Notes under the pieces: generated by a model | What the model was told of the DNA's origin: nothing | What the model saw: the letters and a program-made list of their open reading frames with translations, nothing else | The model's database searches: none | Source of the DNA: a virus | IMG/VR virus record: IMGVR_UViG_3300028024_000120 | Coordinates: 1-35,248 of that record | Direction: 5' to 3' (one strand) | Length of the DNA stretch: 35,248 nt | Shown: positions 1,671 through 32,841 of the stretch, one piece after another | Position numbering within the stretch: position 1 is the stretch's first letter | Layout of the letters: every line of letters begins with the position of its first letter | Made by a program: the position numbers and the translations under genes

Positions 1671-2816
1671 ATGTCGAATTCATTGTTGTCAGCGTCGATT
1701 GCGGGCGATGTCGTTCAGATCGCCTGGCAGGACGGACGGAAAACTGTTTTTCCGTCGATCTGGCTGCGTGACAATTGCCGCTGTCCGAAATGCCGCCATG
1801 CCAATGGCCAGCGTCTGTTCGAGATCACGGACTTGCCGGATGATTTGGCCTTGAAGCAGGCCGGCATCCAGAACGGCAGGCTGCATCTCGTCTGGGCCCC
1901 GGATGATCACGCCAGCGAGTTTTCGGCGGAATGGCTGGCGGCGCATGAGCTTGGCGCCGAAGCCCGCGCGACGCGCCACGAGAAGCCGGTCTTGTGGGAC
2001 AAGTCTCTGATCGGCAATCTGCCCGTGTCTGATTGGCCGAGCCTGCAGCAGGACCCTGCAACGGAGGTTGCCTGGCTCGACAAATATGCGGCCTATGGCT
2101 TTGGCCTGTTGCGCAATGTGCCGACCCGGCCCGGCATGGTCGAGACGGTCGGCAATCATCTCGGCTTCGTGCGGGTCACCAATTACGGCAATCTGTTCGA
2201 TGTGATCTCGGTGCCGAATCCCAATAATCTCGCTTATACGGCGGTCGGCCTCGGCGTGCATAGCGACAACCCGTATCGCGAGCCGACGCCGGGCGTGCAG
2301 CTGCTGCATTGCCTGGAATCGAATGCCCCCGGCGGCGACACATTGCTAGTCGACGGCTTCAATGCGGCCGGGATCTTGCGCCGGGAAGACCCGGCCGCTT
2401 TCGATATTCTCAGCCGCGTGCCGCTGAATTTCCGCTTCCGCGATACCAAAGCCGATCTGCAGGCATGCATGTCGTTGATCAAGGTCGATTTCGACGGGGC
2501 GGTGAAGGAAGTGCATTTCAACAACAGATCGGCCGACATATTGGATGTGCCGGTCGAGCTGGTGACGCCCTGGTATGCGGCGTATCGCAAGTTTGCCGAG
2601 CTTCTGAAGCGGCCGGAGCTGGAACTGATCTTCCGCCTGGGACCCGGCGATCTCGTCGTCATGATGAATGAGCGGGCGCTACATGGCCGTACCGCTTTCG
2701 ATCCCAGCCGAGGCAGCCGCCATCTGCAGGGTTGCTATATCGACAAGGACGGGATCGAAAGCCGCCGCCGTGTGCTGCGGCGTCAGCTTGGTCTGGCAGA
2801 AGGATTGGCGGCATGA
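1671..2816 (+). CDS. tmpA: 2-(trimethylamino)ethylphosphonate dioxygenase (TmpA-like, Fe(II)/2-oxoglutarate)
   Basis: A 381-residue gamma-butyrobetaine-hydroxylase-like protein. The N-terminal domain carries a zinc site, C36, C38, C41 (NCRCPKC) and H80 (DDHASEF). The TauD-type domain holds the iron triad H197 and D199 (GVHSDNPY) with distal H338 (ERALHGRTAF); R350 is placed to bind 2-oxoglutarate. Enzymes of this kind were long annotated as gamma-butyrobetaine dioxygenase. Next to an HD-domain phosphonate oxygenase the better match is TmpA, which hydroxylates 2-(trimethylamino)ethylphosphonate at C1. The unrelated 2-aminoethylphosphonate hydroxylase PhnY* is a PhyH-type protein without the zinc domain. 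The stop overlaps the next start (ATGA), so the pair is translationally coupled. Confidence 0.82.
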   Translation: MSNSLLSASIAGDVVQIAWQDGRKTVFPSIWLRDNCRCPKCRHANGQRLFEITDLPDDLALKQAGIQNGRLHLVWAPDDHASEFSAEWLAAHELGAEARATRHEKPVLWDKSLIGNLPVSDWPSLQQDPATEVAWLDKYAAYGFGLLRNVPTRPGMVETVGNHLGFVRVTNYGNLFDVISVPNPNNLAYTAVGLGVHSDNPYREPTPGVQLLHCLESNAPGGDTLLVDGFNAAGILRREDPAAFDILSRVPLNFRFRDTKADLQACMSLIKVDFDGAVKEVHFNNRSADILDVPVELVTPWYAAYRKFAELLKRPELELIFRLGPGDLVVMMNERALHGRTAFDPSRGSRHLQGCYIDKDGIESRRRVLRRQLGLAEGLAA

Positions 2817-3370
2817 ATGCGGAGCAGAAAGTTGCCGTGATGGGCGCCATCACCCAAGCCTTCGCCAAGCGCGGACATGAGGGCTATGGGGAGGGCGTGA
2901 CGCAGCTGGATCACGCCTTGCAATGTGCTTTTTGCGCGGAACGTGACGGCGCATCGCCGGCGTTGATCGCCGCCACCTTGCTGCATGATATCGGCCATAT
3001 GTTGCACGAACTCCCCGAAGACATCGCCGACCAAGGCGTCGATACCCAGCATGAATCGTTGGGTTCGGCCTGGCTGTCGCAATATTTCGGGCCGGAGGTG
3101 ACGGAGCCGGTGCGGCTGCATGTCGAAGCCAAACGCTATCTCGCGGCGGTCGAGCCGGGCTATTACGACCGGCTGTCGGCAGCCTCCATTCTCAGCTTGA
3201 AGCTGCAGGGTGGCGTTCTGGATCAGGCTCAGGCAAAGGAATTCGAGCAGCGGCCTTTCGCCGAGGAGGCGGTGAAACTGCGACACTGGGACGAGGAAGG
3301 CAAGGAGGTCGGTATGAAGACGCCCGACCTCACGCATTTCTATCGCTATGTCGAGGCAAGCCTTCTCTAA
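2813..3370 (+). CDS. tmpB: HD-domain mixed-valent diiron oxygenase, TmpB/PhnZ family
   Basis: A 185-residue HD-domain protein of the PhnZ/TmpB type, which cleaves the C-P bond of a 1-hydroxyphosphonate with O2. Expected iron ligands are present: H34 (QLDHALQ), H58 and D59 (LLHDIGH), H80 (TQHESLG), H103 (RLHVEAKRY) and D160 (RHWDEEG). The gating Y25 and E27 segment (GYGEGVTQ) and substrate-binding K107 are also conserved. Paired with the TmpA-like gene, the product should turn 1-hydroxy-2-(trimethylamino)ethylphosphonate into glycine betaine and phosphate. A PhnZ role, giving glycine from 2-aminoethylphosphonate, is the alternative if its partner were a PhyH-type hydroxylase. The start at 2813 overlaps the upstream stop. 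The gene meets the next one tail to tail with 4 bp between stops. Confidence 0.82.
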   Translation: MNAEQKVAVMGAITQAFAKRGHEGYGEGVTQLDHALQCAFCAERDGASPALIAATLLHDIGHMLHELPEDIADQGVDTQHESLGSAWLSQYFGPEVTEPVRLHVEAKRYLAAVEPGYYDRLSAASILSLKLQGGVLDQAQAKEFEQRPFAEEAVKLRHWDEEGKEVGMKTPDLTHFYRYVEASLL

Positions 3371-3374
3371 GGCA

Positions 3375-4403
3375 TCATCGCAGGAACTCTACGACGTCCT
3401 TATTGAACGTGTCCGGTGCCTCCATATGTGGCACATGCCCGACATTGGGCACGACGACCAGCTTGCAGTTGCTGACCTCGGCACATGCCTGTTTTGCCAT
3501 CACGGGAAAGTTGCCCATCCGGCTCGCCAATTCGGGCGGGGCATATTGCCGGAGCGGTGCCGATCGGTCGGCTTCGCCGACGACGATCAGGACCGGCATC
3601 TGCAGAAGGCGATATTCGTAACGAACGGGCTGCCGGTAGATCATCTGGTATGTCAGCGCGACCGCCATGGCATAGCGATCGAACTCGCCGCTGAGGCCAA
3701 TCCGGGCGCGCCATTCCACGAAAGGTTCGTATTGAGCGGCAGGCAGGACGGGGAAGTAGCGCTTGATGAAGGCCCGGTACTGCTCGACCGTCTGGTGCCG
3801 TTCGGCCTCGAATAGGGTTTCCGTCGTCTGGGGCGGGACATAGAGGCGGTAATCCTCCAGCCCGATCGGATCTTCCAGCACCAAATGCTTGACGCGGCTG
3901 GCATAGGTGCGGGCAAAGCGGACCGCCAGCATGCCGCCCGTCGAATGCCCGATCACATCCACATCATGCACACCGAGTTTGTCGAGAAGCCGGGCTGTGT
4001 TGTCCGCCAGCAAATCGAAGGTGTAATCGATCTTCGGCTTTGACGATTTATTGAAACCGATCTGGTCCGGGACAATGACGCGATAGCCCGCCGCCGCCAG
4101 TGCCTGAATGACATTCTTCCAATAGGAACTGTCGAAATTTTTGCCGTGCAGCAGCAATACCGTGCGGCCGTTCGGTGTCTGCGTCGGGGCGATATCCATA
4201 TAGGCCATGCGGAGTTGCTGCCCATCGATCTCCAACGGGAAGAACTGGACCGGATAGGGGTAAGGCCATGAGTCGAGGCCGATGCCAAGTGCTTGCGTGT
4301 AAGTTGGGCCCGGAATGCCCGCTGACTGAGCCCAGGCCAGCGTACCGGTGAAGCTTGCGGCCGACAGACAGAGCGCAAAGATCGCGCGATGAGTTTTTCT
4401 CAA
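3375..4403 (-). CDS. Secreted alpha/beta hydrolase
   Basis: A 342-residue alpha/beta-fold hydrolase with a Sec signal peptide: basic start MRKTHR, hydrophobic stretch, and a likely cut after AWA at residue 25. The triad is complete: Ser154 in the elbow GHSTGG, Asp279 (VVGEADRSAP) and His323 (NVGHVPHMEAP). The oxyanion segment is LLLHGKNF at about 84-90. The product probably acts in the periplasm on an ester or similar bond; the substrate cannot be read from the sequence. It is transcribed toward the phosphonate operon and probably forms its own unit, with its promoter somewhere in the 80 bp between it and the truncated hydrolase upstream. Confidence 0.85.
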   Translation of the reverse strand: MRKTHRAIFALCLSAASFTGTLAWAQSAGIPGPTYTQALGIGLDSWPYPYPVQFFPLEIDGQQLRMAYMDIAPTQTPNGRTVLLLHGKNFDSSYWKNVIQALAAAGYRVIVPDQIGFNKSSKPKIDYTFDLLADNTARLLDKLGVHDVDVIGHSTGGMLAVRFARTYASRVKHLVLEDPIGLEDYRLYVPPQTTETLFEAERHQTVEQYRAFIKRYFPVLPAAQYEPFVEWRARIGLSGEFDRYAMAVALTYQMIYRQPVRYEYRLLQMPVLIVVGEADRSAPLRQYAPPELASRMGNFPVMAKQACAEVSNCKLVVVPNVGHVPHMEAPDTFNKDVVEFLR

Positions 4404-4483
4404 GACCGGCTCCTGATGGATTGGTGAGACGTGACGATGAGCGGGGGGGCAAAACTGCGGTTACGAGCTTCCGCCGGGAACAG

Positions 4484-4943
4484 TCAGTCCAGCTCGTTGG
4501 TGACCGCCGCGATCACCGCAGCCGGTGCCTCACGGGGGAGAAAATGTCCGGCAATCGGAATGACGCGGCGGGTAAAGGAGCCGGTGAAGAAACGGTGGGC
4601 ATCTTCGGATTCGGCGGGGAGATCGACACCATCACAGGCGCCTTGTAACACGACCGTCGGCACGGCGATTTTCGGCTGTTGGGCCAATTGCTGTTCGATC
4701 GCTTCCAAGGCCGGATCGCCAGGTGCGGCCTTGAAGCGGTGCCGATATGAATGAATAACGACCTCGACAAAATCCGGATTATCGAAAGCGGCGGCAGTGC
4801 GATCGAAGGTAGCGTCATCGAACTGCCAGTTGGGCGACCAGAGGCGCCACAGCATGCGGCACAAGTCGCGGCGATTCGCGGTGAGGCCATTACGGCCGCG
4901 TTCGGTGTTGAAATACCATTGGTACTTAGGAGAACCAAGCGAA
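4484..4943 (-). pseudogene. Alpha/beta hydrolase cut at its N-terminus by the phage junction
   Basis: The frame encodes the C-terminal half of a second alpha/beta hydrolase. Recognisable family parts are WYFNTERGRNGLTANRRDL, RMLWRLWSPNW, the acid residue region QGACDGVDLP and the catalytic His in IAGHFLPREAP. The frame is open back to a TAA at about 4985-4987 but has no upstream Met, nucleophile elbow or oxyanion segment. Family-like sequence stops near YQWYF (about 4925); what lies upstream (FSAFSLGSPK) does not look like the family. The simplest reading is that phage integration removed the N-terminal half. An internal ATG at 4862-4864 could give a 126-residue product without a nucleophile, presumably inactive. 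Confidence 0.7.
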
Positions 4944-4986
4944 AACGCACTGAAATAGGGGTTTTGCCCGGCTATTTCAGTGCGTT
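4944..4986. repeat. Perfect 15-bp inverted repeat at the host/phage junction (attachment site or terminator)
   Basis: AACGCACTGAAATAG at 4944-4958 is matched exactly by its reverse complement at 4972-4986, with a 13-nt loop. On the minus strand the stem runs into TTTT (4942-4945), so it could end the long phage minus-strand operon whose last gene stops at 5008. It also sits exactly where the host hydrolase is broken, so it may be part of the left attachment site. Both uses are inferred; the second copy needed to prove an attachment site would lie outside the window. Confidence 0.6.
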
Positions 4987-5007
4987 AGCTTTTGGTGCGT
5001 TCGCCTC

Positions 5008-5253
5008 TCAGTCGGCCTTCTGGCGCGCAACCTGGCGCGTTACGTCCCGGCCGAGCTCGGCCTTCAGTTCAGCGATCGTCATGCTGACGTCCTCGGCCCA
5101 TGTCATGAAAGCCCCGACCACACGCGGGTCGACGTCGGCCGCCGAGAGGGCCTTGAGCAGGTTATTGCGTGATTCCTTGCAACAATCCCTATCCGCTTCA
5201 ACCCCCGCAAGTGTTTCACCATTCCCAGAATCATGATCTAATGCATTTGCCAT
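5008..5253 (-). CDS. Small hypothetical phage protein
   Basis: 81 residues, acidic at the start and mostly helical in appearance (ESRNNLLKALSAADV, then DVSMTIAELKAELGRDV). I do not recognise the family. It is the last gene of the minus-strand operon, 4 bp after the polymerase C-terminal half, so it is probably co-transcribed with replication genes. The inverted repeat at 4944-4986 lies just downstream. Confidence 0.6.
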   Translation of the reverse strand: MANALDHDSGNGETLAGVEADRDCCKESRNNLLKALSAADVDPRVVGAFMTWAEDVSMTIAELKAELGRDVTRQVARQKAD

Positions 5254-5257
5254 GTTT

Positions 5258-6280
5258 TTATTTCCTGTAACGATGGCCGCGCCAACCTTCGGCCGCGATT
5301 GGCATGCCGGCCGCCCACACCGGCTGTTGGATCAACAGGGCGACAAACTCGTCAAGCGACCCGAAGGTCTTCTTGACGTAAGCAATGATTTCGTCGTGGA
5401 CGGTCAGAACGACTTCGTAGCCGGCTTTCTCGACCCGCTGCATCGCTTCGGCCATGATATCGCGGCACATGGCCTGGGTGATGTTCTCAACGAGGGAGCC
5501 CCCATACGTCGGCCCCTCAACCCATTTCCGGCTGAGAGGATCGACGTACTTGTAGTGGAGGGCCGGGCTGATCTCGCCGTTGGACGTCCACCCTCGTTCT
5601 CTCCAGGTGGCCAATTCACTGTATGGAATACGGCGGGATTCGCGTTCATTGTCTGCCTTCTTGCGCTCGGTCCACACGTAGTCGACGAGACGCGGATAGG
5701 GGTAGGAGAGACAGCGGCCGGACGGTAACTGGCAAAAGAGGAACGAGCCTGCTTTGCGGTATTTTACCCGCCCACCCGCACACCTTGTCACTTGGCCGGG
5801 GTTCTGAACTGCCGCGATGGCAGCCGCCTCGGTTTCTTTCCATAAGCTGACGATGTTGCTATTTTTACTCCTCCATCCCTTAACGATGGCTAAAGCTTCA
5901 CGATCCGTTATCCTTAACCCGTAATTAACGGCCATCTTCTGAAAGGCGCCGGTAGAGCCCTGATAGCCGCAAGCGAGTTCGGGCACCTTGCCCGTGGACT
6001 GCCGCTCGTCCTTGGTGACAGCATCGATCGACTTGCCAAGGATCTCGCTGGCCGTCACTTTGTATAGGTCGGGCCCGGTGCCGGCGTCGTAATCCCGAAA
6101 CGCTTGCATCTTCCAATCCTCGCCAGCCAGCCACGCCAGGCCACGCCCCTCGATGTTGGAGAAGTCAGCCGCGATTGTGTCGTAGCCCGGCGGGGCGATG
6201 ATCATGCCGCGGATGCACTCACTGACGACCGTCAACGGCGGCCCGTAGAGCATTTCGAGCGCGAGGTCGGTGTCTTTCAT
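5258..6280 (-). CDS. Family A DNA polymerase, C-terminal half (palm and fingers)
   Basis: 340 residues carrying the catalytic part of a phage PolA-type polymerase. Motif A is AADFSNIEGRGLAWLAG (catalytic Asp near residue 39), the fingers helix is KVPELACGYQGSTGAF, and motif C is LTVHDEIIAYV near residue 300. It begins MKDTDLALEMLYGPPL, which in undivided relatives follows directly on the segment that ends the other half (6465-7529). The polymerase is therefore encoded as two polypeptides with a small gene between them. The ATG at 6278-6280 overlaps the stop of that small gene (ATGA). Both halves keep their motifs, so an assembled two-chain enzyme is plausible, but activity is inferred. Confidence 0.88.
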   Translation of the reverse strand: MKDTDLALEMLYGPPLTVVSECIRGMIIAPPGYDTIAADFSNIEGRGLAWLAGEDWKMQAFRDYDAGTGPDLYKVTASEILGKSIDAVTKDERQSTGKVPELACGYQGSTGAFQKMAVNYGLRITDREALAIVKGWRSKNSNIVSLWKETEAAAIAAVQNPGQVTRCAGGRVKYRKAGSFLFCQLPSGRCLSYPYPRLVDYVWTERKKADNERESRRIPYSELATWRERGWTSNGEISPALHYKYVDPLSRKWVEGPTYGGSLVENITQAMCRDIMAEAMQRVEKAGYEVVLTVHDEIIAYVKKTFGSLDEFVALLIQQPVWAAGMPIAAEGWRGHRYRK

Positions 6281-6468
6281 TTACGCAGCACCGCAGGACG
6301 CACTTTCTGTATCCGAAGTGAGCCGCGGTCGAAGCCCGACATCGGATCTTCGTATATGTGCCGGCCGCCGCACTCGGTGGCAAGTGCGGATTCAACGTAC
6401 TCGCGACACTCGGCTTCAGTCGCGCCTCTCGGGCGATCGAAGCTGATCTGAAATGTGATGCGGCTCAT
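6277..6468 (-). CDS. 63-residue protein gene lying between the two polymerase halves
   Basis: A compact protein with ISFDRPRGATEAECREYVES and DPMSGFDRGSLRIQKV. It resembles small, functionally unknown phage proteins of the type 'TFxVxFxxPxGxTxxxCxxYIE...DPM...D', recalled from memory and not searched. Its start overlaps the stop of the polymerase N-terminal half and its stop overlaps the start of the C-terminal half, both as ATGA. It is not an intein: it has its own start and stop and lacks splicing residues. Its clean insertion at a domain boundary suggests acquired cargo. Confidence 0.72.
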   Translation of the reverse strand: MSRITFQISFDRPRGATEAECREYVESALATECGGRHIYEDPMSGFDRGSLRIQKVRPAVLRK

Positions 6469-7529
6469 GCAGCTCCCTCCAAAATGAGTTCAATCGCGCC
6501 GTCCACATCGTCCAGCGTCTGTCGCGGCAGGTTTTGCAACTGAGCACCGCGAGCAGCCCAACGGCCCGTATTAGCGCCAAGGAACTGAAGATTGCCGCGC
6601 ATGAAGCCATCGTGATCAGAGCGGCGCAGCATCTGATCGATCTTGGCCGTGGATGTCTTCGCGGCTTCGCGGCGAAGCTCCAGGGCGCGACGGACTCCCG
6701 CAAGTAAGGGCTCAGACCCATCCAACAGCTCCGTGATCGTGGCCTTGTTGACGGATTTCGTGTCGATCCCGTTGGCCTTCAGGAAATCGATCAGCTGATA
6801 GACGTTGCTGCAGGCAGATACGGCGCCGTCGGTGACCTCGCGCATCTCGTCGTCCAGCCGCTTCTGCGTGCGGCCGACAACGGCCAGCGCCGCTTGGCAC
6901 AGTTTGCGATCGATGAACACGCCGCGGTCGTTGATTTGCTGATCTAGCCAGTAGAGCTCCTGCTCGCTGGGTTTCAGTGGTAGGAGCCGGTTGTCCAGGT
7001 CGCGCTCAACCCTGACGTCCTGATCGCAGTATTCCTGCAGCCTGGCGATCTTCTCCGGCTGGTCCCACCAGATGATGGAGCCGTCGGGATTGACCTTGCG
7101 CGGCTTGGCCATCTGGAGCATGAGCCGCTGTCCGGCGCCGTCCTTGCCGGCGTCCAGGCCGACAGCTGCCGCAGCGCCGCCGAGGTCGCCCGGGAGGGCC
7201 ATCGCCATCGACCGCACCATCACACAAGACAGGGATTTGAGCTCCGGTCTCGGCCAGCCATAGCGTGGCGTGAGGATGATCCACCAACAAAGTCTTTCGA
7301 AAGAAGCATTGTACGCGCGGATCTCGCCGTCACTCAGGACGTGGGCGATGATCTCGTCGGGGCACGGTTCGCCGGGCACCCACCGCTTCACGTCGCCGTC
7401 GCCGAAGGCGTAGGACATGCACCAGACGTCCGTCGACGAATGTTGAAAATAAATGTGGGATCCGACCTTCTTCAGATCGGCCGCACTTCGGGTCTCCACG
7501 TCACAGTGGAGCACGTCAGATGATGACAT
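6465..7529 (-). CDS. Family A DNA polymerase, N-terminal half (3'-5' exonuclease and thumb)
   Basis: 354 residues from the ATG at 7527-7529. The start holds a DnaQ/PolA proofreading motif, HCDVETRSAADLKKVG (metal-binding D and E). YCDQDVRVERDL near residue 190 looks like the third exonuclease motif. The end holds the polymerase segment NTGRWAARGAQLQNLPR, after which the chain stops at ELILEGAA. Relatives continue here straight into what is now the separate gene at 5258-6280. The start overlaps the HNH endonuclease gene by 14 bp. The frame is open further upstream inside the HNH gene, but the homology begins at this Met. Confidence 0.86.
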   Translation of the reverse strand: MSSSDVLHCDVETRSAADLKKVGSHIYFQHSSTDVWCMSYAFGDGDVKRWVPGEPCPDEIIAHVLSDGEIRAYNASFERLCWWIILTPRYGWPRPELKSLSCVMVRSMAMALPGDLGGAAAAVGLDAGKDGAGQRLMLQMAKPRKVNPDGSIIWWDQPEKIARLQEYCDQDVRVERDLDNRLLPLKPSEQELYWLDQQINDRGVFIDRKLCQAALAVVGRTQKRLDDEMREVTDGAVSACSNVYQLIDFLKANGIDTKSVNKATITELLDGSEPLLAGVRRALELRREAAKTSTAKIDQMLRRSDHDGFMRGNLQFLGANTGRWAARGAQLQNLPRQTLDDVDGAIELILEGAA

Positions 7530-8037
7530 CGCGATGGATCTTTCCAGTCTTGATACAGGACACGGTCGTGGCCGAAACACCGAACCGCGCTGCGATGAGT
7601 TTTTGCTGGACGCCATCGCGCAGCATTAGTTTCAGCAAGCGCGCTTGCTCGCCCGTCAATTTGTAGTTATCCGGAAGCCGATGCCACTTACGGTCTTGCA
7701 CGTTCCGCGAAGGCGTACCGTATTCGAGGTTACAAAGCCGGTTATCGTCGGGTTGCCCGTTCAAGTGCCGAACCTCCATGCGCTCGGGGCGGGGGCCGAT
7801 GAAGGTCTCCGCTATCAGCGCATGCACTCGTACCTTTTCGCGCACCAAGCCGACGTAGACGTGCCCGCTCGGGTATTTTGTTTGGACGAGGATCCGCCCC
7901 TTGACGAAAACTACGTACGGAACGCCGCACATGCTTGTGCGCGAGGCGTAGCGATCCAGTGACCGGATGCGGCCTCGGTCGCTCGCTTCGTACTCGCCCT
8001 CGAAGCCTGGGATTGCCTTCCACACCTCAGAAGTCAA
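7516..8037 (-). CDS. NUMOD4/HNH homing endonuclease
   Basis: 173 residues with a NUMOD4 start (EVWKAIPGFEGEYEASDRGR), an HNH core (VHALIAETFIGPRP, then VRHLNGQPDDNRLCNLEYGT) and a C-terminal helix-turn-helix (QKLIAARFGVSATTVSCIKT). Such free-standing phage enzymes cut related genomes and promote copying of the surrounding DNA. The reading frame begins with TTG at 8035-8037, right after the stop of the preceding gene; a GTG at 8023-8025 is an alternative. It lies just upstream of the split polymerase, so it may have driven the event that split it; that link is inference. Confidence 0.85.
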   Translation of the reverse strand: MTSEVWKAIPGFEGEYEASDRGRIRSLDRYASRTSMCGVPYVVFVKGRILVQTKYPSGHVYVGLVREKVRVHALIAETFIGPRPERMEVRHLNGQPDDNRLCNLEYGTPSRNVQDRKWHRLPDNYKLTGEQARLLKLMLRDGVQQKLIAARFGVSATTVSCIKTGKIHRDVII

Positions 8038-8412
8038 TCAGACCTCCAACCACAAAATCGGCTTCCGCATTTCCGCGAAGCGTCGGCGCTCGTAGGCGAT
8101 ACCTTCGGAGGCATCCCAGCCCGGCATCTTCACAACGATCATGCCGATCGCCGCTTGCATGAACGGCTCGTCGACGGCCATCCAGAATTCGTGATCCGTA
8201 AAGCTCAGGTTGCTCGACTTGCAAAGCACGTGGGAATGGACGATCGGGGAATAAACGTGGACGCCGGCACCGAGCAATTTCGCTGCTTCCTGCGCGGCGC
8301 GGTTGGCGGCGAGGCCAAGCAGCACGTCGTCCGTTGCCCGGTCGGCCACCTCACGCATGTGGTTGGCGTAGCCGGTATACGGGGTCGCGAGGTACCAAAA
8401 GCCTGTCTTCAT
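8038..8412 (-). CDS. DUF1937 protein (nucleoside deoxyribosyltransferase-like fold)
   Basis: 124 residues from the ATG at 8410-8412, preceded by GGAG at a good distance; an in-frame GTG lies two codons upstream. The pattern WYLATPYTGY, VYSPIVHSHV, DHEFWMAVDEPFM and VVKMPGWDASEGI is that of DUF1937, a phage and bacterial family related to nucleoside 2-deoxyribosyltransferases. A role in nucleotide handling during phage replication is possible. The stop is followed immediately by the HNH gene. Confidence 0.82.
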   Translation of the reverse strand: MKTGFWYLATPYTGYANHMREVADRATDDVLLGLAANRAAQEAAKLLGAGVHVYSPIVHSHVLCKSSNLSFTDHEFWMAVDEPFMQAAIGMIVVKMPGWDASEGIAYERRRFAEMRKPILWLEV

Positions 8413-8470: not shown

Positions 8471-8722
8471 TCAGTTCAAAATGTCTTCGTACATGGCAAG
8501 CAACGCGTCCTGCTCGTCGCGCAACTCCTTGTCCATCTTCCGACGGGCAATGGCCTTGCGCATGATCTTGACGTCGAAGCCGGCCGATTTCGCTTCGGCG
8601 AAGACTTCCTTGATGTCGGTCGCGATCGTGTCTTTTTCCGACGACAGTCGCTCGATGCGTTCGATAAACGACTGAAGCCGGTCTTTCGCGATGGCGCCGC
8701 TGTTGTGTCCGATGTCGCTCAT
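8471..8722 (-). CDS. gapR: GapR-like DNA-binding protein (DUF2312)
   Basis: 83 residues starting MSDIGHNSGAIAKDRLQSF, with SFIERIERLSSEKDTIATDI, EVFAEAKSAGFDVKIMRK and a C-terminal DEQDALLAMYEDIL. This matches the alphaproteobacterial GapR/DUF2312 family, helical proteins that clamp overtwisted DNA and assist topoisomerases at replication forks. A phage copy beside replication genes would fit help with phage DNA topology. The start overlaps the upstream stop by one base (TAATG). Confidence 0.85.
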   Translation of the reverse strand: MSDIGHNSGAIAKDRLQSFIERIERLSSEKDTIATDIKEVFAEAKSAGFDVKIMRKAIARRKMDKELRDEQDALLAMYEDILN

Positions 8723-9261
8723 TAGTCAAAAATCCCCCCACCTTCGCCGCCGGCCGATTCGCCCACCGCCTCGAATTCATTCTCCGGGCGGGCGCGATTG
8801 CCGAACGGCGCATCGTCGCGGGTCTTCTGCAGGTTCTGCAGACCGAACGAAACGCCACGGTTGCCGTTCACGTCATAGGCGAAGGCCCGGACCGACGCGC
8901 GGCCCCAGCAGCCGGAATAGATTTCGCTCTCGTCAATGATCGGCTGCACCTTCGCATCCACCAAGCCCGGCTTTTGCTTGGACGTCGCGGACACCCGGAC
9001 CATGCCGGGCTGATACTCGTCCCGCTCTTCCGGATCGACTTCCTTCAGCGGGTTCCGCAGACCCTTGGGGATCTTATCGCCCCATTTCTCCTTGGAGACA
9101 CGAGCGACGTCCGCCTTCAGCGCGCTCAGGTCGGCGCCCTTGGGGAAAAGCATCACGAGGCTATATTTCTTCTCGCCGGTGCCGTCGGGGTTCGTGGCAC
9201 GAGGTTGAAACACGTTCACGAAGCTCATGCGGAATTCGGGGGTCTTAACGTTGTCGCTCAT
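8722..9261 (-). CDS. DUF2815 single-stranded DNA-binding protein
   Basis: 179 residues with FRMSFVNVFQPRA, KKYSLVMLFPKGADLSAL and a C-terminal half holding YSGCWGRASVRAFAYDVNGN. This is the DUF2815 family, thought to be an OB-fold ssDNA-binding protein like T7 gp2.5. The tail is acidic and flexible (GEGGGIFD), as in many SSBs that recruit partners. It lies between a PD-(D/E)XK nuclease and the GapR-like gene, consistent with a replication and recombination set. Confidence 0.84.
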   Translation of the reverse strand: MSDNVKTPEFRMSFVNVFQPRATNPDGTGEKKYSLVMLFPKGADLSALKADVARVSKEKWGDKIPKGLRNPLKEVDPEERDEYQPGMVRVSATSKQKPGLVDAKVQPIIDESEIYSGCWGRASVRAFAYDVNGNRGVSFGLQNLQKTRDDAPFGNRARPENEFEAVGESAGGEGGGIFD

Positions 9262-9294: not shown

Positions 9295-10482
9295 TCACTC
9301 GACGGCGGTGAATTCCGTCTCCGCTTCCGGCCGTACCGGCGGACGTGGGTCGTCCAGCGGCACCACGACGGTTCCGCTCGAAGTCTTGTTGTAGTAGTCC
9401 TTGATCGCGGCATCGGCCGCGGCACCCTTGAAGCCGTAATGCTTCTTCAGTGCTGCCTCGACCTGGGCCGGTGAATTGAATTTCGGCCGCTGGTAGATGT
9501 GCTCGTCGGCGACATCCCAGAGCAGTTGCAAGGCTGCCTTGGCCGTTTCTTCGTCCTGCCAGCGGCGCGATGGACGGCTCGCCACCAGCTTCGTGCCAGG
9601 TAGCATCCGGCCGGCTTCCGCCTCGTGGTGAACGAAGTCTCGCACCGCCTTGCAGTACCCTTCCAACCGATCAAGCGAGTCCCATACGGCTTTCAGTTGA
9701 TCGAGGTTGAGCGATGTCGGATCCGGCACGGTGATTCCTTCTGCTTGGCTGAATTCGGCTTGCGCTTCCGCGAGTGTCGCCTGGAACTTGGCGGGGCACG
9801 TGGCCGCTGCCTTGCAAAACTTGCACTCGTCTCCAGCCACCAATGGCGCGTCCGGCTGCTGGCTGGCCTCGATCGCCTGTACAGCTTCCTGCGACCAGAT
9901 CAACAGGTCTTCATAGGTCGTCTCGTAATCGCGGATCGGGCCTTTCGGATGCGTCGCCAGCGGCTGGACAATCCAGATCACGATCTTCTCGACGCCCCGG
10001 TTGTGGTGGCGCGTCGCGGCGCCGAGCGCATAGGTCAGACACTGCGGATTCTCGAACGCGTCCACCAGCCGGTAACCGAACTTCCAGTCCGCGACGTGCA
10101 GCTCCTTTGCGTACGGCTTGTAGACTGTCAGATCGCCGATGCCGCCCCAACCTTCGCGGAAGTCGGACAGGTCGAATTGCTGCTCCAGCTCCCACTCGTC
10201 GCCCGGTCCGATCAGTTGCTTGGCGAAGTCGATACAGGTTTGCACCGCTTCGACTTCGCGCTCGGTGATCGGATCGCCCAGCACCTCCTGGGCGTGGATG
10301 TCGAACGTCGTGTTCTTCAGCACCTTTTCGACGATCTCGTGGAGCGCCGTTCCCCGGTCCGCGAACACGCTGCTCTTGTCCGGGATGTGCTGTTGCATCC
10401 GGAACGAGCCGGGGCACTGCATCAGCCGCTTCATGCCGGAGGCAGAGAAGAGAGCGTGTTTGCGGGCGCCGTGGTCGGTCAT
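9295..10482 (-). CDS. DUF2800 PD-(D/E)XK nuclease
   Basis: 395 residues. The N-terminus FSASGMKRLMQCPGSFRMQQ and ADRGTALHEIVEKVL are typical of RecB/Cas4-like phage nucleases. The catalytic core is GGIGDLTVYKPY followed by LHVADWKFGYRLVD (Asp then D-x-K), with a downstream QCLTYALGA. A cysteine group CKFCKAAATCP near residue 225 could hold an Fe-S cluster or zinc together with the early Cys. A role in phage recombination or DNA end processing is likely. It is followed on the operon by the DUF2815 ssDNA-binding gene. Confidence 0.84.
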   Translation of the reverse strand: MTDHGARKHALFSASGMKRLMQCPGSFRMQQHIPDKSSVFADRGTALHEIVEKVLKNTTFDIHAQEVLGDPITEREVEAVQTCIDFAKQLIGPGDEWELEQQFDLSDFREGWGGIGDLTVYKPYAKELHVADWKFGYRLVDAFENPQCLTYALGAATRHHNRGVEKIVIWIVQPLATHPKGPIRDYETTYEDLLIWSQEAVQAIEASQQPDAPLVAGDECKFCKAAATCPAKFQATLAEAQAEFSQAEGITVPDPTSLNLDQLKAVWDSLDRLEGYCKAVRDFVHHEAEAGRMLPGTKLVASRPSRRWQDEETAKAALQLLWDVADEHIYQRPKFNSPAQVEAALKKHYGFKGAAADAAIKDYYNKTSSGTVVVPLDDPRPPVRPEAETEFTAVE

Positions 10483-24985: not shown

Positions 24986-25051
24986 ATGCTCTTCGTGTGT
25001 TGGTTGTCCGTCCTGTTGATTGGCGTCGTCGTGCTGGAGCTGGTCAAGTGA
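24986..25051 (+). CDS. 21-residue hydrophobic peptide coupled to the HigA-like gene
   Basis: ATG at 24986 with GGAGG 8 nt upstream. Product MLFVCWLSVLLIGVVVLELV-K, one membrane span. Its TGA overlaps the next ATG (TGATG), so ribosomes ending here can start the HigA-like gene. It may be a small toxin-like peptide or a leader; the sequence alone does not decide. Confidence 0.5.
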   Translation: MLFVCWLSVLLIGVVVLELVK

Positions 25052-25296
25052 TGCAAACCGCTCGAAAGCCCGTATCGGTGGGCGAAATGCTCAAAGAGGA
25101 ATTCGGCGTCACGCAGCAAGACCTCGCTGCGCGGGCCGGGGGGATACCGTCCGTGGCCGCTGGTGTGATGGGCGGCGAACGCCCGATCGATCAGACGATG
25201 GCCGAGGATTTGGCGCTTCTGTGCGGCAACAGCGTTCATTTCTGGCTGAACTGCCAGGAGCGGACCGAGCAGTGGGTGAGGAAACAATGCTTGTAA
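25051..25296 (+). CDS. HigA-like XRE-family regulator
   Basis: 81 residues: RKPVSVGEMLKEEFGVTQQD, LAARAGGIPSVAAGVMGGER and LCGNSVHFWLNCQERTEQW. This is the HigA/VapI antitoxin layout: helix-turn-helix followed by the FWLN-x-Q signature. No HigB-type toxin is next to it; the upstream partner is a hydrophobic peptide and the downstream one RtcB. The 3' part (25155-25265) is copied exactly at 26551-26661. The stop overlaps the rtcB start by 10 bp. Confidence 0.75.
   Translation: MQTARKPVSVGEMLKEEFGVTQQDLAARAGGIPSVAAGVMGGERPIDQTMAEDLALLCGNSVHFWLNCQERTEQWVRKQCL
25155..25265 (+). repeat. 111-bp direct repeat, copy 1 (inside the HigA-like gene)
   Basis: Identical base for base to 26551-26661. This is the in-context copy, since it forms part of the intact HigA-like frame. 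Confidence 0.95.
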
Positions 25297-26504
25297 TTCA
25301 GGACGCTTCCGATCGGCAGATGTCGCCGATCAAAATGTGGACGGATGGGGTGCCTATCGAAGAGGCAGCCATGAAGCAGCTGATCAATGTGGCCTCACTG
25401 CCGTTCATCCACAAGCACGTGGCTGTAATGCCGGATGTCCATTGGGGCATGGGCGCGACCGTCGGGTCAGTCATCCCGACCACTGGCGCCATTATTCCGG
25501 CCGCCGTCGGCGTTGATATCGGTTGCGGCATGATGGCCGCTCGGCTCAAGCTCAGGGCCTCCGATTTGCCCGACGATCTATCGGCGATCCGTTCCGCGAT
25601 CGAGGCGGCCGTGCCGCACGGGCGCACGAACAACGGTCGCGAGAACGATCGAGGTGCCTGGGGTGAGGCGCAGGAGATGCGCCCGGACCTGTCCGGTGCG
25701 CTTCGCGATATCATCGCCAAGCATCCAAAGCTCGAACGCGCCGCAGCCCGGGCGCCGCATCATCTCGGCTCGCTCGGTACCGGCAACCATTTCATTGAGC
25801 TCTGCCTCGACGAGAACGACGACGTCTGGGTCATGCTGCACTCGGGTTCGCGCGGGATCGGCAACGCGATCGGGCAGTACTTCATCGAACTGGCCAAGCA
25901 GGACATGCGGAAGTGGTTCATCAATCTGCCGGACGAGGACCTGGCCTACCTCCCGGAGGGGACTGACCACTTCGACGACTACTACATGGCCCTCAACTTC
26001 GCCCAACGGTTCGCGATGGTGAACCGCGAGCGGATGATGACGTCGGTCTTTGACGTTCTCCGAAAATTCCTCCCCAACCAGGGCCTTCAGGCCGACCAGC
26101 ACGCGGTCAACTGCCACCACAACTACGTTGCCAAGGAATATCACATGGGCAAGAGCGTGTGGCTGACCCGGAAGGGTGCGGTCGCCGCTTATGAAGGCGG
26201 GCTTGGCATCATCCCGGGATCGATGGGCGCCAAGTCGTTCATCGTGCGCGGCAAAGGCAATCCCGAGAGCTTTTGCAGTTGCAGCCACGGCGCCGGCCGG
26301 GCGATGTCGCGTGCTGAAGCGAAACGCCGGTTCACGCTAGACGACCACATCGCGGCGACGGCAGCGGTCGAATGCCGGAAGGATGCCGAGGTCATCGACG
26401 AAACACCGATGGCGTACAAATCGATCGACGACGTGATGGCAGCCCAGTCCGACTTGGTTGAAATCGTCCACACGCTCAAGCAGGTGGTTTGCGTCAAAGG
26501 ATAA
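25287..26504 (+). CDS. rtcB: RtcB RNA-splicing ligase
   Basis: 405 residues, the length of E. coli-type RtcB. It joins RNA 2',3'-cyclic phosphate (or 3'-phosphate) ends to 5'-OH ends using GTP and Mn2+. Ligands are visible: D77 and C80 (GVDIGCGM), H167 (GTGNHFIEL), H184 (MLHSGSRGIG), H276 (VNCHHNYV), and the guanylylated H333 (CSCSHGAGR). The start at 25287 follows GAGGAAAC. In phages RtcB is thought to repair tRNAs cut by host ribonucleases. Here a tRNA-Pro gene, now broken, begins at the base after the stop codon. All key residues are present, so the enzyme should be active. Confidence 0.93.
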   Translation: MLVIQDASDRQMSPIKMWTDGVPIEEAAMKQLINVASLPFIHKHVAVMPDVHWGMGATVGSVIPTTGAIIPAAVGVDIGCGMMAARLKLRASDLPDDLSAIRSAIEAAVPHGRTNNGRENDRGAWGEAQEMRPDLSGALRDIIAKHPKLERAAARAPHHLGSLGTGNHFIELCLDENDDVWVMLHSGSRGIGNAIGQYFIELAKQDMRKWFINLPDEDLAYLPEGTDHFDDYYMALNFAQRFAMVNRERMMTSVFDVLRKFLPNQGLQADQHAVNCHHNYVAKEYHMGKSVWLTRKGAVAAYEGGLGIIPGSMGAKSFIVRGKGNPESFCSCSHGAGRAMSRAEAKRRFTLDDHIAATAAVECRKDAEVIDETPMAYKSIDDVMAAQSDLVEIVHTLKQVVCVKG

Positions 26505-29959: not shown

Positions 29960-30199
29960 ATGACCGAGTTGGAAATCGAAGCGCTGGTGGAGCGGGCCGC
30001 GAAAGAGGGGGCTCGCCAGGCGCTTGAGCAGATCGGGTTGCATGACGAAGGGGCGGTTAAAGACGTCCTGGAGCTGCGCAGCCTGATCGGTTCCTGGCGT
30101 GAGGTGAAGAAGACGGCGATACAGACTTTCGTTCGCTGGACGACGCTCGGCATCTTGGGTCTTCTGGCTGCTGGCTGGTGGTGGCAGAACCACAAATGA
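29960..30199 (+). CDS. DUF6127 membrane protein (holin-like)
   Basis: 79 residues: a helical cytoplasmic part (ELEIEALVERAAKEGARQAL, EQIGLHDEGAVKDVLELRSL) followed by one membrane span (TLGILGLLAAGWWWQ). This matches DUF6127, a phage family usually near terminase genes. A holin or packaging-associated role is possible. The stop overlaps the terminase start (ATGA). Confidence 0.78.
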   Translation: MTELEIEALVERAAKEGARQALEQIGLHDEGAVKDVLELRSLIGSWREVKKTAIQTFVRWTTLGILGLLAAGWWWQNHK

Positions 30200-32841
30200 G
30201 CCAGTTCAAGGGCAAATCTACCGAAGAGTTGATGCGCGAGCAAAAGCTGCTCAAGCGCATGATCGCTGTTGACGAAGCGAAGAACGACTTCTTGCGGTTT
30301 GTCCAGTTTACCATGCCGGATCCGGACGACATCGACGATTCAGACCTGTCGATGTACACGATCACGCCGCTATCGCGCGTGCTCGGCGAGATCCTGATGA
30401 AGGTGGAGCGGGGCGAGCTGTTGCGCGTGGCGCTGTCGGTTGGTCCGCAGTATGGCAAGTCGGAGATGATCACGCGTCGGTTCCCGCCGTGGTTCTCCGG
30501 TCGCAATCCGCACCGGCATGTCATTCTCGGTACCTACAACCAGGACCGCGCCAGCGAAGAAGGCGGCGAGGTTCGGGAAATCATCGAAGGCACGCCGTTC
30601 AAGCAGGTGTTCCCCAAGTACAGGCTGCGCACCGGCTCACAGTCGAAAGAGCTGATGATCACCGATCGGGGCGGAAAGATGGCGTTCGTGGGCGTCGGCG
30701 GCTCCGGCTCCGGTAAACCCGCCGATCTCATCCTGATCGACGATCCGATCAAGAACGACGAGGAGGCGCAGAGCGAGACCTACCGCGAACGGCAATGGAA
30801 CTGGTTCAACCGCGTGGCGTATGCCCGTGCGAAGACGACGACCGCTATCGTGGTGGTTCACTGCCTGGTCGGTGCAACGCTCGTCACGATGGCGGACGGA
30901 TCGGCCAAGCCGATCGCCGACATCCGGCCAAGTGACGAGGTGTTCGCTCACGAGAACCATCGGTTCGTGCCGCGTCGAGTGCTGAATTGGGCTTCTCAGG
31001 GCGAAGACGACATTCTCGAATTGAAGACCGGAAACCATACGGTCCGTGGCAACGCGCGGCACCCGTTCCTGACGGTACGCGGCGGCAAAACTATTTGGGT
31101 ACCTCTCGGCGAGCTCGTTCCCGGCGACAGCATTGTCTGCTCTGCCATCCAACCGGGGGAAGGCGAACGGCTTGACGAGACAGAAGCGTGGTTGCTGGGC
31201 TTCATGTTCGGCGATGGCTGGGTAACCGTGCGCAACGCGATGAAGTACGACAAGAAGTGGAATCGCACCTACCCGCGGCGCGGCTTTGTCACTTGCTGTG
31301 CCTTTAAAAAATATTTCGAGTTGAATGAGAAAGTCCTTCAACACTTTGAGGCGGTATTCGGGTTCCGACCAAAGGCGACGGAATTCGGGTACTGGCGGAC
31401 AGAAAAGCAGGACGTCGGACGGTGGTTCTCCGAACGCGGCATGATCGGGAAAGCGAAGACGAAGCGACTGCCCGCGTGGCTCTTCTCAGAGTCGGTTGCT
31501 GTCCGTCAGGCATTTATGCAGGGCTTCACTGAAGCCGACGGACACGTTGATAAAAAAAGTCAGACGACTGTTGCGTCGGCGAATCCCAATTTACTTGCCG
31601 ACCTACGGCACCTGGCGCGCTCGGCGGGCGTTAAGCCGTCGAACATTCATCGGTATGCGTTTACGGCCCAGCCGCCGAATTCGCCGAGGCCCGTGGACGG
31701 GGTGACGTACAGCTTCAAGTGGGGGGTCAACGGCTATGATACGGCGTTCGACGTCGTAAATGTTCGCAGCGTGGAAAAAGTCGGCCGCGCCGAGGTCTTC
31801 GACATTCAGGTCGAAGGCGCGGAGAACTTCATCGCCGATGGGCTGGTCTGTCACAACACGCGCTGGTCCGAGGACGACCTGATCGGCCGGCTGTGCGATC
31901 CGGACCATCCGGAGCGCAACAAGAAATATGCCGGCATCGCCGACGACTGGACCTACATCAATCTGCCGGCGGTGGTGAGCGATCCCGCCCTGGCCAAGGC
32001 GTTAGGGCTGACCCTGGAGCCGCAAACCGATCCGCGCGTCATTGCGCAGTTCGGTGCGAAGCCGATGACGACGCTGTGGCCGGAGCGCAAGAGTCTGTTG
32101 CATTTGGCGTCCGCCCGCCGGTTGGACGCGCGCGGCTTCGATGCGCTGTACATGGGCAAACCGTCACCCGACGATGGTGACTATTTCAAGGCTGATTGGC
32201 TGGTCGAACACTTCAAGCCGGAAGAGTATCCGAAGAACCTCCGTAAATACGCGGCATCGGATCACGCGTTGAGCGAGAAGGAGAAGGCGGACAGCACTTG
32301 CATGGGCGCGTTCGGTATCGACGAGCACGACGACATCTGGATCATGCCGGATCTCGTCTGGCGGAAGATGGAGGCCGACACGACGCTGGACGAGATGCTT
32401 GGCGTCATGAAGCAGCACCGGCCGGTCGTGTGGTTCGCCGAAGACGAGCACATCAACAAGACGCTGGGTCCGTTCCGCCGCAAACGCATGGCGGAAGAGA
32501 AGATTTACACGCTCGTCAAGGGCATGACGTCGACGAAGGATCTTCGTGCGCGTGCCCGGTCGATCCAAGGTCGCATGGCGATGCGCAAGGTGCATTTCCC
32601 GGCATGGATGCCGTGGTGGTCAATGGCGAAATCGGAGCTGCTGAAGTTCCCGTTCGCGACCCACGACGACTTCGTGTCGTTCATGAGTTTGATCGGCCGC
32701 GGGCTCGATGCCGAGTATGGCGCCGAGCAGGTCAAGGTCGAGAAGAACGTGATTCGTGTCGGCTCGATCGAGTGGATGAAACGGTCGGCCGCGAACCGTA
32801 ATCGCGCAGCGCAACTGAAGAAGGGACGAGCAGGTTTCTAA
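30196..32841 (+). CDS. Terminase large subunit interrupted by an intein
   Basis: 881 residues as encoded, 549 after splicing, a normal TerL length. ATPase: Walker A GPQYGKS at 83-89, Walker B LILIDDP (Asp182/183), then the coupling motif VVVH/TRWSEDDLIGRL, where the intein is inserted. Nuclease: KYAASDHALSEKEKADST, VVWFAEDEHINKTLGPF and THDDFVSFMSL supply acidic residues of the RNase H-like fold. The product pumps DNA into the prohead and cuts it. Start at 30196 overlaps the DUF6127 stop. Splicing is needed for a working enzyme. Confidence 0.92.
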   Translation: MSQFKGKSTEELMREQKLLKRMIAVDEAKNDFLRFVQFTMPDPDDIDDSDLSMYTITPLSRVLGEILMKVERGELLRVALSVGPQYGKSEMITRRFPPWFSGRNPHRHVILGTYNQDRASEEGGEVREIIEGTPFKQVFPKYRLRTGSQSKELMITDRGGKMAFVGVGGSGSGKPADLILIDDPIKNDEEAQSETYRERQWNWFNRVAYARAKTTTAIVVVHCLVGATLVTMADGSAKPIADIRPSDEVFAHENHRFVPRRVLNWASQGEDDILELKTGNHTVRGNARHPFLTVRGGKTIWVPLGELVPGDSIVCSAIQPGEGERLDETEAWLLGFMFGDGWVTVRNAMKYDKKWNRTYPRRGFVTCCAFKKYFELNEKVLQHFEAVFGFRPKATEFGYWRTEKQDVGRWFSERGMIGKAKTKRLPAWLFSESVAVRQAFMQGFTEADGHVDKKSQTTVASANPNLLADLRHLARSAGVKPSNIHRYAFTAQPPNSPRPVDGVTYSFKWGVNGYDTAFDVVNVRSVEKVGRAEVFDIQVEGAENFIADGLVCHNTRWSEDDLIGRLCDPDHPERNKKYAGIADDWTYINLPAVVSDPALAKALGLTLEPQTDPRVIAQFGAKPMTTLWPERKSLLHLASARRLDARGFDALYMGKPSPDDGDYFKADWLVEHFKPEEYPKNLRKYAASDHALSEKEKADSTCMGAFGIDEHDDIWIMPDLVWRKMEADTTLDEMLGVMKQHRPVVWFAEDEHINKTLGPFRRKRMAEEKIYTLVKGMTSTKDLRARARSIQGRMAMRKVHFPAWMPWWSMAKSELLKFPFATHDDFVSFMSLIGRGLDAEYGAEQVKVEKNVIRVGSIEWMKRSAANRNRAAQLKKGRAGF
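30862..31857 (+). mobile_element. Intein with LAGLIDADG homing endonuclease in TerL
   Basis: Residues 223-554 of the precursor (332 residues). First residue Cys223 (CLVGATLVTMADGS), block B GNARHPFLTV (His289), two LAGLIDADG motifs LLGFMFGDG (333-341) and FMQGFTEADG (about 440-449), block F VFDIQVEGAENFIADG, and the end VCHN with Asn554, followed by Thr555 as the +1 nucleophile. All residues for splicing are in place, and both endonuclease motifs keep an acidic residue, so it may still home. Confidence 0.93.

Follow-up and report, generated by a model that had tools for sequence, protein, structure and literature searches.

A family A DNA polymerase encoded by two open reading frames in a provirus, and divisions at the same palm linker among its relatives

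The window analysed here is an IMG/VR viral record of 35,248 bases, the left part of which is host chromosome and the rest a provirus. The host genes encode an aldehyde dehydrogenase, TauD and an alpha/beta hydrolase. The frame of the hydrolase is apparently cut short where the provirus starts, and a strong hairpin lies at the same place; this start, with the truncated gene and the hairpin, is likely the left attachment site. The early operon runs along the minus strand in the order DUF2800 exonuclease, Enc34-type single-stranded DNA (ssDNA)-binding protein, GapR-like protein, DUF1937 protein, NUMOD4/HNH endonuclease, N half of a family A DNA polymerase, an ORF of 63 residues, and C half of the polymerase (Table 1). 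At the GapR-like gene, the gene order of the window is also found in two relatives, contigs L002 and L167. Elsewhere, the provirus bears an RtcB RNA ligase gene, and the terminase large subunit in the window carries a LAGLIDADG intein (Intein_splicing and Hom_end domains).

Table 1. Features of the polymerase locus and of its surroundings (positions are those of the window)
Feature	Position	Strand	Details
Alpha/beta-hydrolase frame (host)	4484-4960		Apparently cut short at provirus start
Hairpin	~4945-4990		Strong; at provirus start
C half, family A DNA polymerase	5258-6280	-	340 aa; PF00476, 4.4e-14; PHROG 17; remaining palm and fingers, with motifs A (DFSNIEGR), B and C (VHDE)
63-aa ORF between the halves	6277-6468	-	ATGA overlap at each end
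N half, family A DNA polymerase	6465-7529	-	354 aa, ends ELILEGAA; PHROG 17 match; covers the DEDDy 3'-5' exonuclease, the thumb and TGRW...QNLPR, the first segment of the palm (Klenow Arg668 counterpart)
NUMOD4 + HNH_3 homing-type endonuclease gene	7516-8037	-	Pfam, 2.1e-13 and 7.4e-11
GapR-like DNA-binding protein, early operon	8471-8722	-	PF10073, 4.8e-29
Enc34-type ssDNA-binding protein, early operon	8722-9261	-	PF10991, 2.5e-45
DUF2800 / PD-(D/E)XK exonuclease	9295-10482	-	Pfam
RtcB RNA ligase gene	25020-26504		Provirus-borne
Terminase large subunit	30178-32841		LAGLIDADG intein

The NUMOD4/HNH gene shares 14 nt with the start of the N half, for which the ATG at 7616 is an alternative start. 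An initial annotation of this DNA had the inserted gene overlapping both of its neighbours, and both junctions are indeed 4-base ATGA overlaps, at 6465-6468 between the N half and the 63-aa ORF and at 6277-6280 between the 63-aa ORF and the C half. The last N-half codon and the C-half start are 187 nt apart and out of frame with each other, and the third frame is that of the 63-aa ORF; the halves can therefore not be joined by any single base change. The sequence GGAGGGAG precedes the ATG of the 63-aa ORF and is a good ribosome-binding site, and the in-frame coding score of this ORF exceeds that of the other frames of the same strand. Judging from this layout, it is plausible that the three ORFs are translated together, coupled at the ATGA overlaps, and re-initiation at both overlaps would be the means.

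The two-gene polymerase is real, in that separate ORFs match one phage polymerase profile, PHROG 17, in tandem, at positions 670-989 (E 4.5e-46) for the N half and 993-1232 (E 1.1e-58) for the C half. Conservation was judged against positions of exonuclease and polymerase catalysis that are invariant in 21 undivided relatives. The N half keeps the DEDDy exonuclease residues (D10/E12, F77/E78 and Y167/D171) and the polymerase residues T321-G322-R323, and the C half keeps the motif A D39, K98 and H295-D296-E297. Alignment with the undivided relatives reveals no catalytic residue lost at the junction, and the gap falls, as first proposed, between catalytic motifs rather than inside one. The proposed division into an exonuclease/thumb chain and a palm/fingers chain stands as far as the chains are separate, but the cut lies inside the palm, and the TGR...QNLPR palm strand sits on the N chain. 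When a profile of undivided relatives is aligned to the Klenow fragment, with numbers counted from the printed alignment, the TGR arginine of the N chain corresponds to Klenow 668 and the motif A aspartate of the C chain to Klenow 705. The break maps between Klenow 686 and 689, within a linker of ~33 residues that is present in the phage family and missing from Klenow; by direct reading, it lies ~35 residues before the motif A Asp in the window. The C half protein begins MKDTDLALEMLYGPP, and the N end ELILEGAA (followed by the stop) and the C start MKDTDLALEM align as plain linker with undivided relatives. Joined, the halves do read like one normal polymerase: the linker is LPRQTLDDVDGAIELILEGAA + DLALEMLYGPPLTVV in the window and IKRPELDDIDEAIEAVMTGN + ADIVDMLFGPPLSVV in the undivided close relative L167, with no residues missing.

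An AF2 model of the C half has a confident fold (pLDDT 87), which Foldseek matches to Aquifex Pol I and Klenow with a probability of 1.00. In the model of the N half (pLDDT 79), the exonuclease and thumb are confident, and the best Foldseek matches are phiVC8 DpoZ, G20c Pol I and T7 gp5. The last 41 residues of the N half (314-354), which hold the TGR...QNLPR palm segment, are disordered when modelled alone and are expected, on the strength of these models, to become ordered only with the C chain.

Both halves are readable in 119 non-redundant relatives, the window included; 113 of these have an undivided polymerase, three of them with in-frame intein-like inserts. One (L013) is interrupted by a split intein, and five (the window, L002, L219, G003 and G014) are split at the same linker without an intein. 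The halves of L002 overlap directly, in different frames and with no insert, while those of L219 are separated by a 252-aa PAPS-reductase-like ORF (L219:6047-6805) in ATGA overlap with the N half. In G003 and G014, the minus strand encodes the N half and the plus strand the C half, at distances of 9.5 kb and 10.1 kb, respectively. The same opposite-strand layout is found in G001, where the halves are 7.9 kb apart and the N half is partial; it is thus seen in three independent contigs, all of the contigs being metagenomic fragments. To this group also belong contigs with an N half and no adjacent C half (L133-L136 and L223) and contigs with a C half and no adjacent N half (L005, L186, L188 and L189). 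G003 yielded no further copy of the N half, and G014 none of either half. Two further contigs may hold other breaks. In L181 (9992-11346), the polymerase is apparently split elsewhere, between the exonuclease (172 aa) and the thumb, at a contig end where an assembly error is possible; in L215 (8841-10261), also at a contig end, the linker is shortened and the halves, separated by a few bases, do not share a frame, possibly a further split.

Within the opposite-strand clade, a Prim-Pol-like/helicase gene is found just downstream of the C half. The N half of this clade belongs to another operon, where it is followed by a tRNA-Lys(CTT)-like sequence and then a tyrosine integrase. The tRNA-like sequence (L224:6020-6095, L223:6020-6095 and L132:11161-11194), which the last codons of the N half overlap in L223 and L224, is probably an attachment site, and movement of this site is a possible alternative cause of the split in this clade. 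The separated halves are under purifying selection, with pairwise Nei-Gojobori dN/dS values of 0.17-0.29 for the C half and 0.08-0.33 for the N half, and no intein sequence was found at their ends. Because the halves lie on opposite strands, frameshift, read-through and cis splicing are impossible in this clade, and, if its enzyme works at all, it has to do so as two chains. The polymerase of the window most likely does likewise, by analogy.

These observations bear on whether a single polypeptide is restored in the window by frameshifting, read-through, intron splicing or protein splicing, as might be suspected from the inteins that occur a few residues upstream in the same polymerase family (L013, L097 and L068), one of them a split intein accompanied by a free GIY-YIG-like gene, and from the introns proposed for the phage MEP401 (PMC10580990). 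Such restoration is very improbable for the window, where the halves are 187 nt out of frame with no intein sequence at either junction end and where a search of 4900-8200 against Rfam, introns included, gave no match up to E 1. No group I or II intron was found between the window halves, the gap being an ORF, and no N or C intein fragments were found at the ends of the window ORFs. In the relatives with opposite-strand halves, neither cis splicing nor a frameshift can join them; this layout excludes read-through, frameshift, intron and local assembly error as general explanations. As for the inteins themselves, the L013 polymerase (2717-5882) carries a split intein at its TGR motif, with the free-standing GIY-YIG-like ORF between the intein halves. 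Apparent in-frame inteins lie at the GR motif in L097, L099, L096 and L068, which are Peptoniphilaceae and other contigs, with inserts of ~960-1000 nt.

The polymerase could also be a decaying pseudogene in a prophage remnant, given that the window virus is integrated, with a host hydrolase gene apparently cut by the provirus end. We consider this unlikely, since the conserved residues are all kept in clean ORFs with overlapping starts, the break recurs in distant relatives, and dN/dS of the separated halves is well below 1. Equally doubtful is that the halves no longer cooperate, so that the N chain would act as an exonuclease on its own and the C chain as a polymerase or primase-like enzyme independent of it. 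The position of the C half just before the Prim-Pol-like/helicase gene in the opposite-strand clade, with the N half in another operon, would suit such a separation, as would the proposal that reduced Pol A-SSB pairs are primases (PMC10061031). Against it, the N chain keeps the TGR palm segment, which is of no use to a free exonuclease and is predicted to be disordered alone. A second polymerase may also exist elsewhere in these genomes, in which case the split enzyme might be dispensable or altered.

Taken from the sequences, the best explanation is that the two ORFs encode two chains of one putatively working family A replicative polymerase, and we hold this to be very probable. The N chain, with its exonuclease, its thumb and the first palm strand that bears the Arg668 equivalent, and the C chain, with motifs A, B and C, would fold separately. 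The chains would then assemble non-covalently via the palm and so rebuild the active site; in the models, the C half folds well alone and the last 41 residues of the N half do not, as would be expected if these residues complete the palm together with the C chain. The gene may have broken at a tolerant point, the family-specific linker that runs from TGR...QNLPR to motif A. In the window, a small gene, perhaps a neighbour, would have come to sit between the halves.

Phylogenetic trees built from the N half alone or from the two halves combined place the window and L219 as sisters (SH-aLRT 96-98), and this pair nests among the undivided L167, L194, L218, L150 and L004. The opposite-strand group forms its own clade with full support among other undivided relatives, while the trees leave the placement of L002 unresolved. 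In AU tests, for which the groups were named after the data were seen, a single clade of all splits is rejected for the N halves (p 0.007) and the concatenation (p 0.022) and not for the C halves (p 0.265). A single ancestral split for all cases is accordingly rejected on the first two data sets and not on the C halves alone, and at least two independent fissions are favoured rather than proven. One fission with later re-fusions, or recombination between halves, is still compatible with these trees.

The initial annotation named the HNH gene directly upstream as a possible agent of the split. A comparable case is reportedly the ribonucleotide reductase of phage Aeh1, described by Friedrich et al. 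in 2007 (cited in PMC5418858), in which two ORFs, separated by a further gene, together encode one enzyme. The insert of Aeh1 is a homing endonuclease; that of the window is not a nuclease, and its HNH gene lies outside the halves, so that the homing endonuclease gene between the halves that characterizes such genes in pieces is absent. The overlap of the NUMOD4/HNH gene with the N-half start invites this comparison, but ten HNH homologues adjoin the outer ends of polymerases, nine of them undivided, and none lies at the junction. Five are at the 5' end (L169, L071, L034, L038 and L261) and the others at the 3' end (L007, L199, L166 and L249, plus the C half of L189). The closest, that of L169 (48% identical), occupies the same position as in the window, before an undivided polymerase. 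No HNH homologue was found in the split loci L002, L219, G003 and G014; splits thus exist without the gene. Splitting by the HNH endonuclease is consequently very unlikely, and the gene is more plausibly an ordinary guest that sits beside the polymerase gene.

Nor is there support for the 63-aa insertion as the maker of the split, as had been supposed: L002 and the opposite-strand clade have divided polymerases with no similar gene between the halves, and L219 has a different gene there. The 63-aa protein has no firm relative in Pfam, PHROGs, NCBIfam, PDB, phages, plasmids or viral contigs, and the insert matches no nuclease family in Pfam, PHROG or NCBIfam. Its one weak match is a 59-aa ORF of L167 (phmmer E 0.006, 17.9 bits, the best of 60 shuffled controls reaching 16.6 bits), and the likeness rests also on similar length and on the same operon. 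In L167, whose polymerase is undivided, this ORF stands in ATGA overlap between the DUF2800 and ssDNA-binding protein genes, where the window has only a 33-bp gap. A scan with the 59-aa protein returned its own contig and one match in L281, which sits inside a longer ORF of unlike sequence and is attributed to chance. The PAPS-reductase-like insert of L219 has homologues next to polymerases that are undivided: that of L177 follows the polymerase gene, and that of Rhizobium phage RHph_N65 stands shortly before it. Together, the weak L167 match and these PAPS-reductase-like neighbours fit a local rearrangement that stranded a neighbouring gene inside the broken polymerase. We infer that the inserts are neighbour genes left behind by such a rearrangement, e.g., a partial tandem duplication in which one half was then lost from each copy; in the window, the 63-aa ORF is perhaps a small gene from the same operon.

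Fractured genes with split inteins were reportedly described by Dassa et al. in 2009. Split inteins are known in the polymerase gene polB of phage MIJ3 (PMC6892783), which, like the window, has two ORFs with an ORF between them; unlike it, the window junction is without intein halves, and L013 is the true counterpart of these fractured genes. The layout of the window is already preceded by the OM43 (Methylophilales) phages MEP401 and MEP402 of the Zobellviridae, whose family A polymerase is encoded by two ORFs that flank a small unknown ORF (PMC10580990). There, too, an exonuclease-bearing N ORF and a C ORF surround one small ORF, and the break falls between the GR...PNLQN motif and motif A. 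The break of MEP401 is nearer motif A (after TLFLSRYGE and just before ILNADAKALEW), ~30 residues further on than in the window, its small ORF of 77 aa has no evident similarity to that of 63 aa, and its polymerase belongs to a different branch. The N/small ORF/C arrangement is therefore present in the window, and a homologous insert and break point are absent; a tblastn search with the 63-aa protein gave zero phage matches in a collection that includes MEP401. The MEP401 genes are adjacent, and an intron was considered by its authors (PMC10580990). Pol III alpha of group 2.2 jumbo phages is also split, with halves in distantly located genes that are predicted to reassemble (PMC7824862). These distant halves resemble those of the opposite-strand clade, but the enzyme is of family C, with a different fold and break point. 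In a limited search of the open-access literature, no earlier report was found in which the halves of a family A polymerase lie on opposite strands.

Family A polymerases such as Klenow, T7 and Taq are treated as single chains. A natural palm break that recurs, with halves kept on opposite strands, suggests that the enzyme can work as a heterodimer, and the break point offers a site for a two-part polymerase switched by assembly. A broader claim, for which we see about even chances, is that the family A replicative polymerase of this phage group has turned into an obligate two-chain enzyme on more than one occasion, always by a break at the same lineage-specific palm linker. The split genes would then be free to enter different operons on opposite strands, with the chains expressed separately, and the inserts would be neighbours and not homing elements. 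The set of relatives is of wider interest than the window alone, as it shows several ways in which the gene of a core replication enzyme can be split, with halves that overlap, halves with a gene between them and halves far apart. Surveys that count one full-length polymerase gene miss or miscount such phages. Listeria phage LWP01, NatCom_6238 and RHph_N65 were considered as carriers of divided polymerases and set aside, each holding one polymerase ORF. NatCom_17901 is annotated on the wrong strand in phage records.
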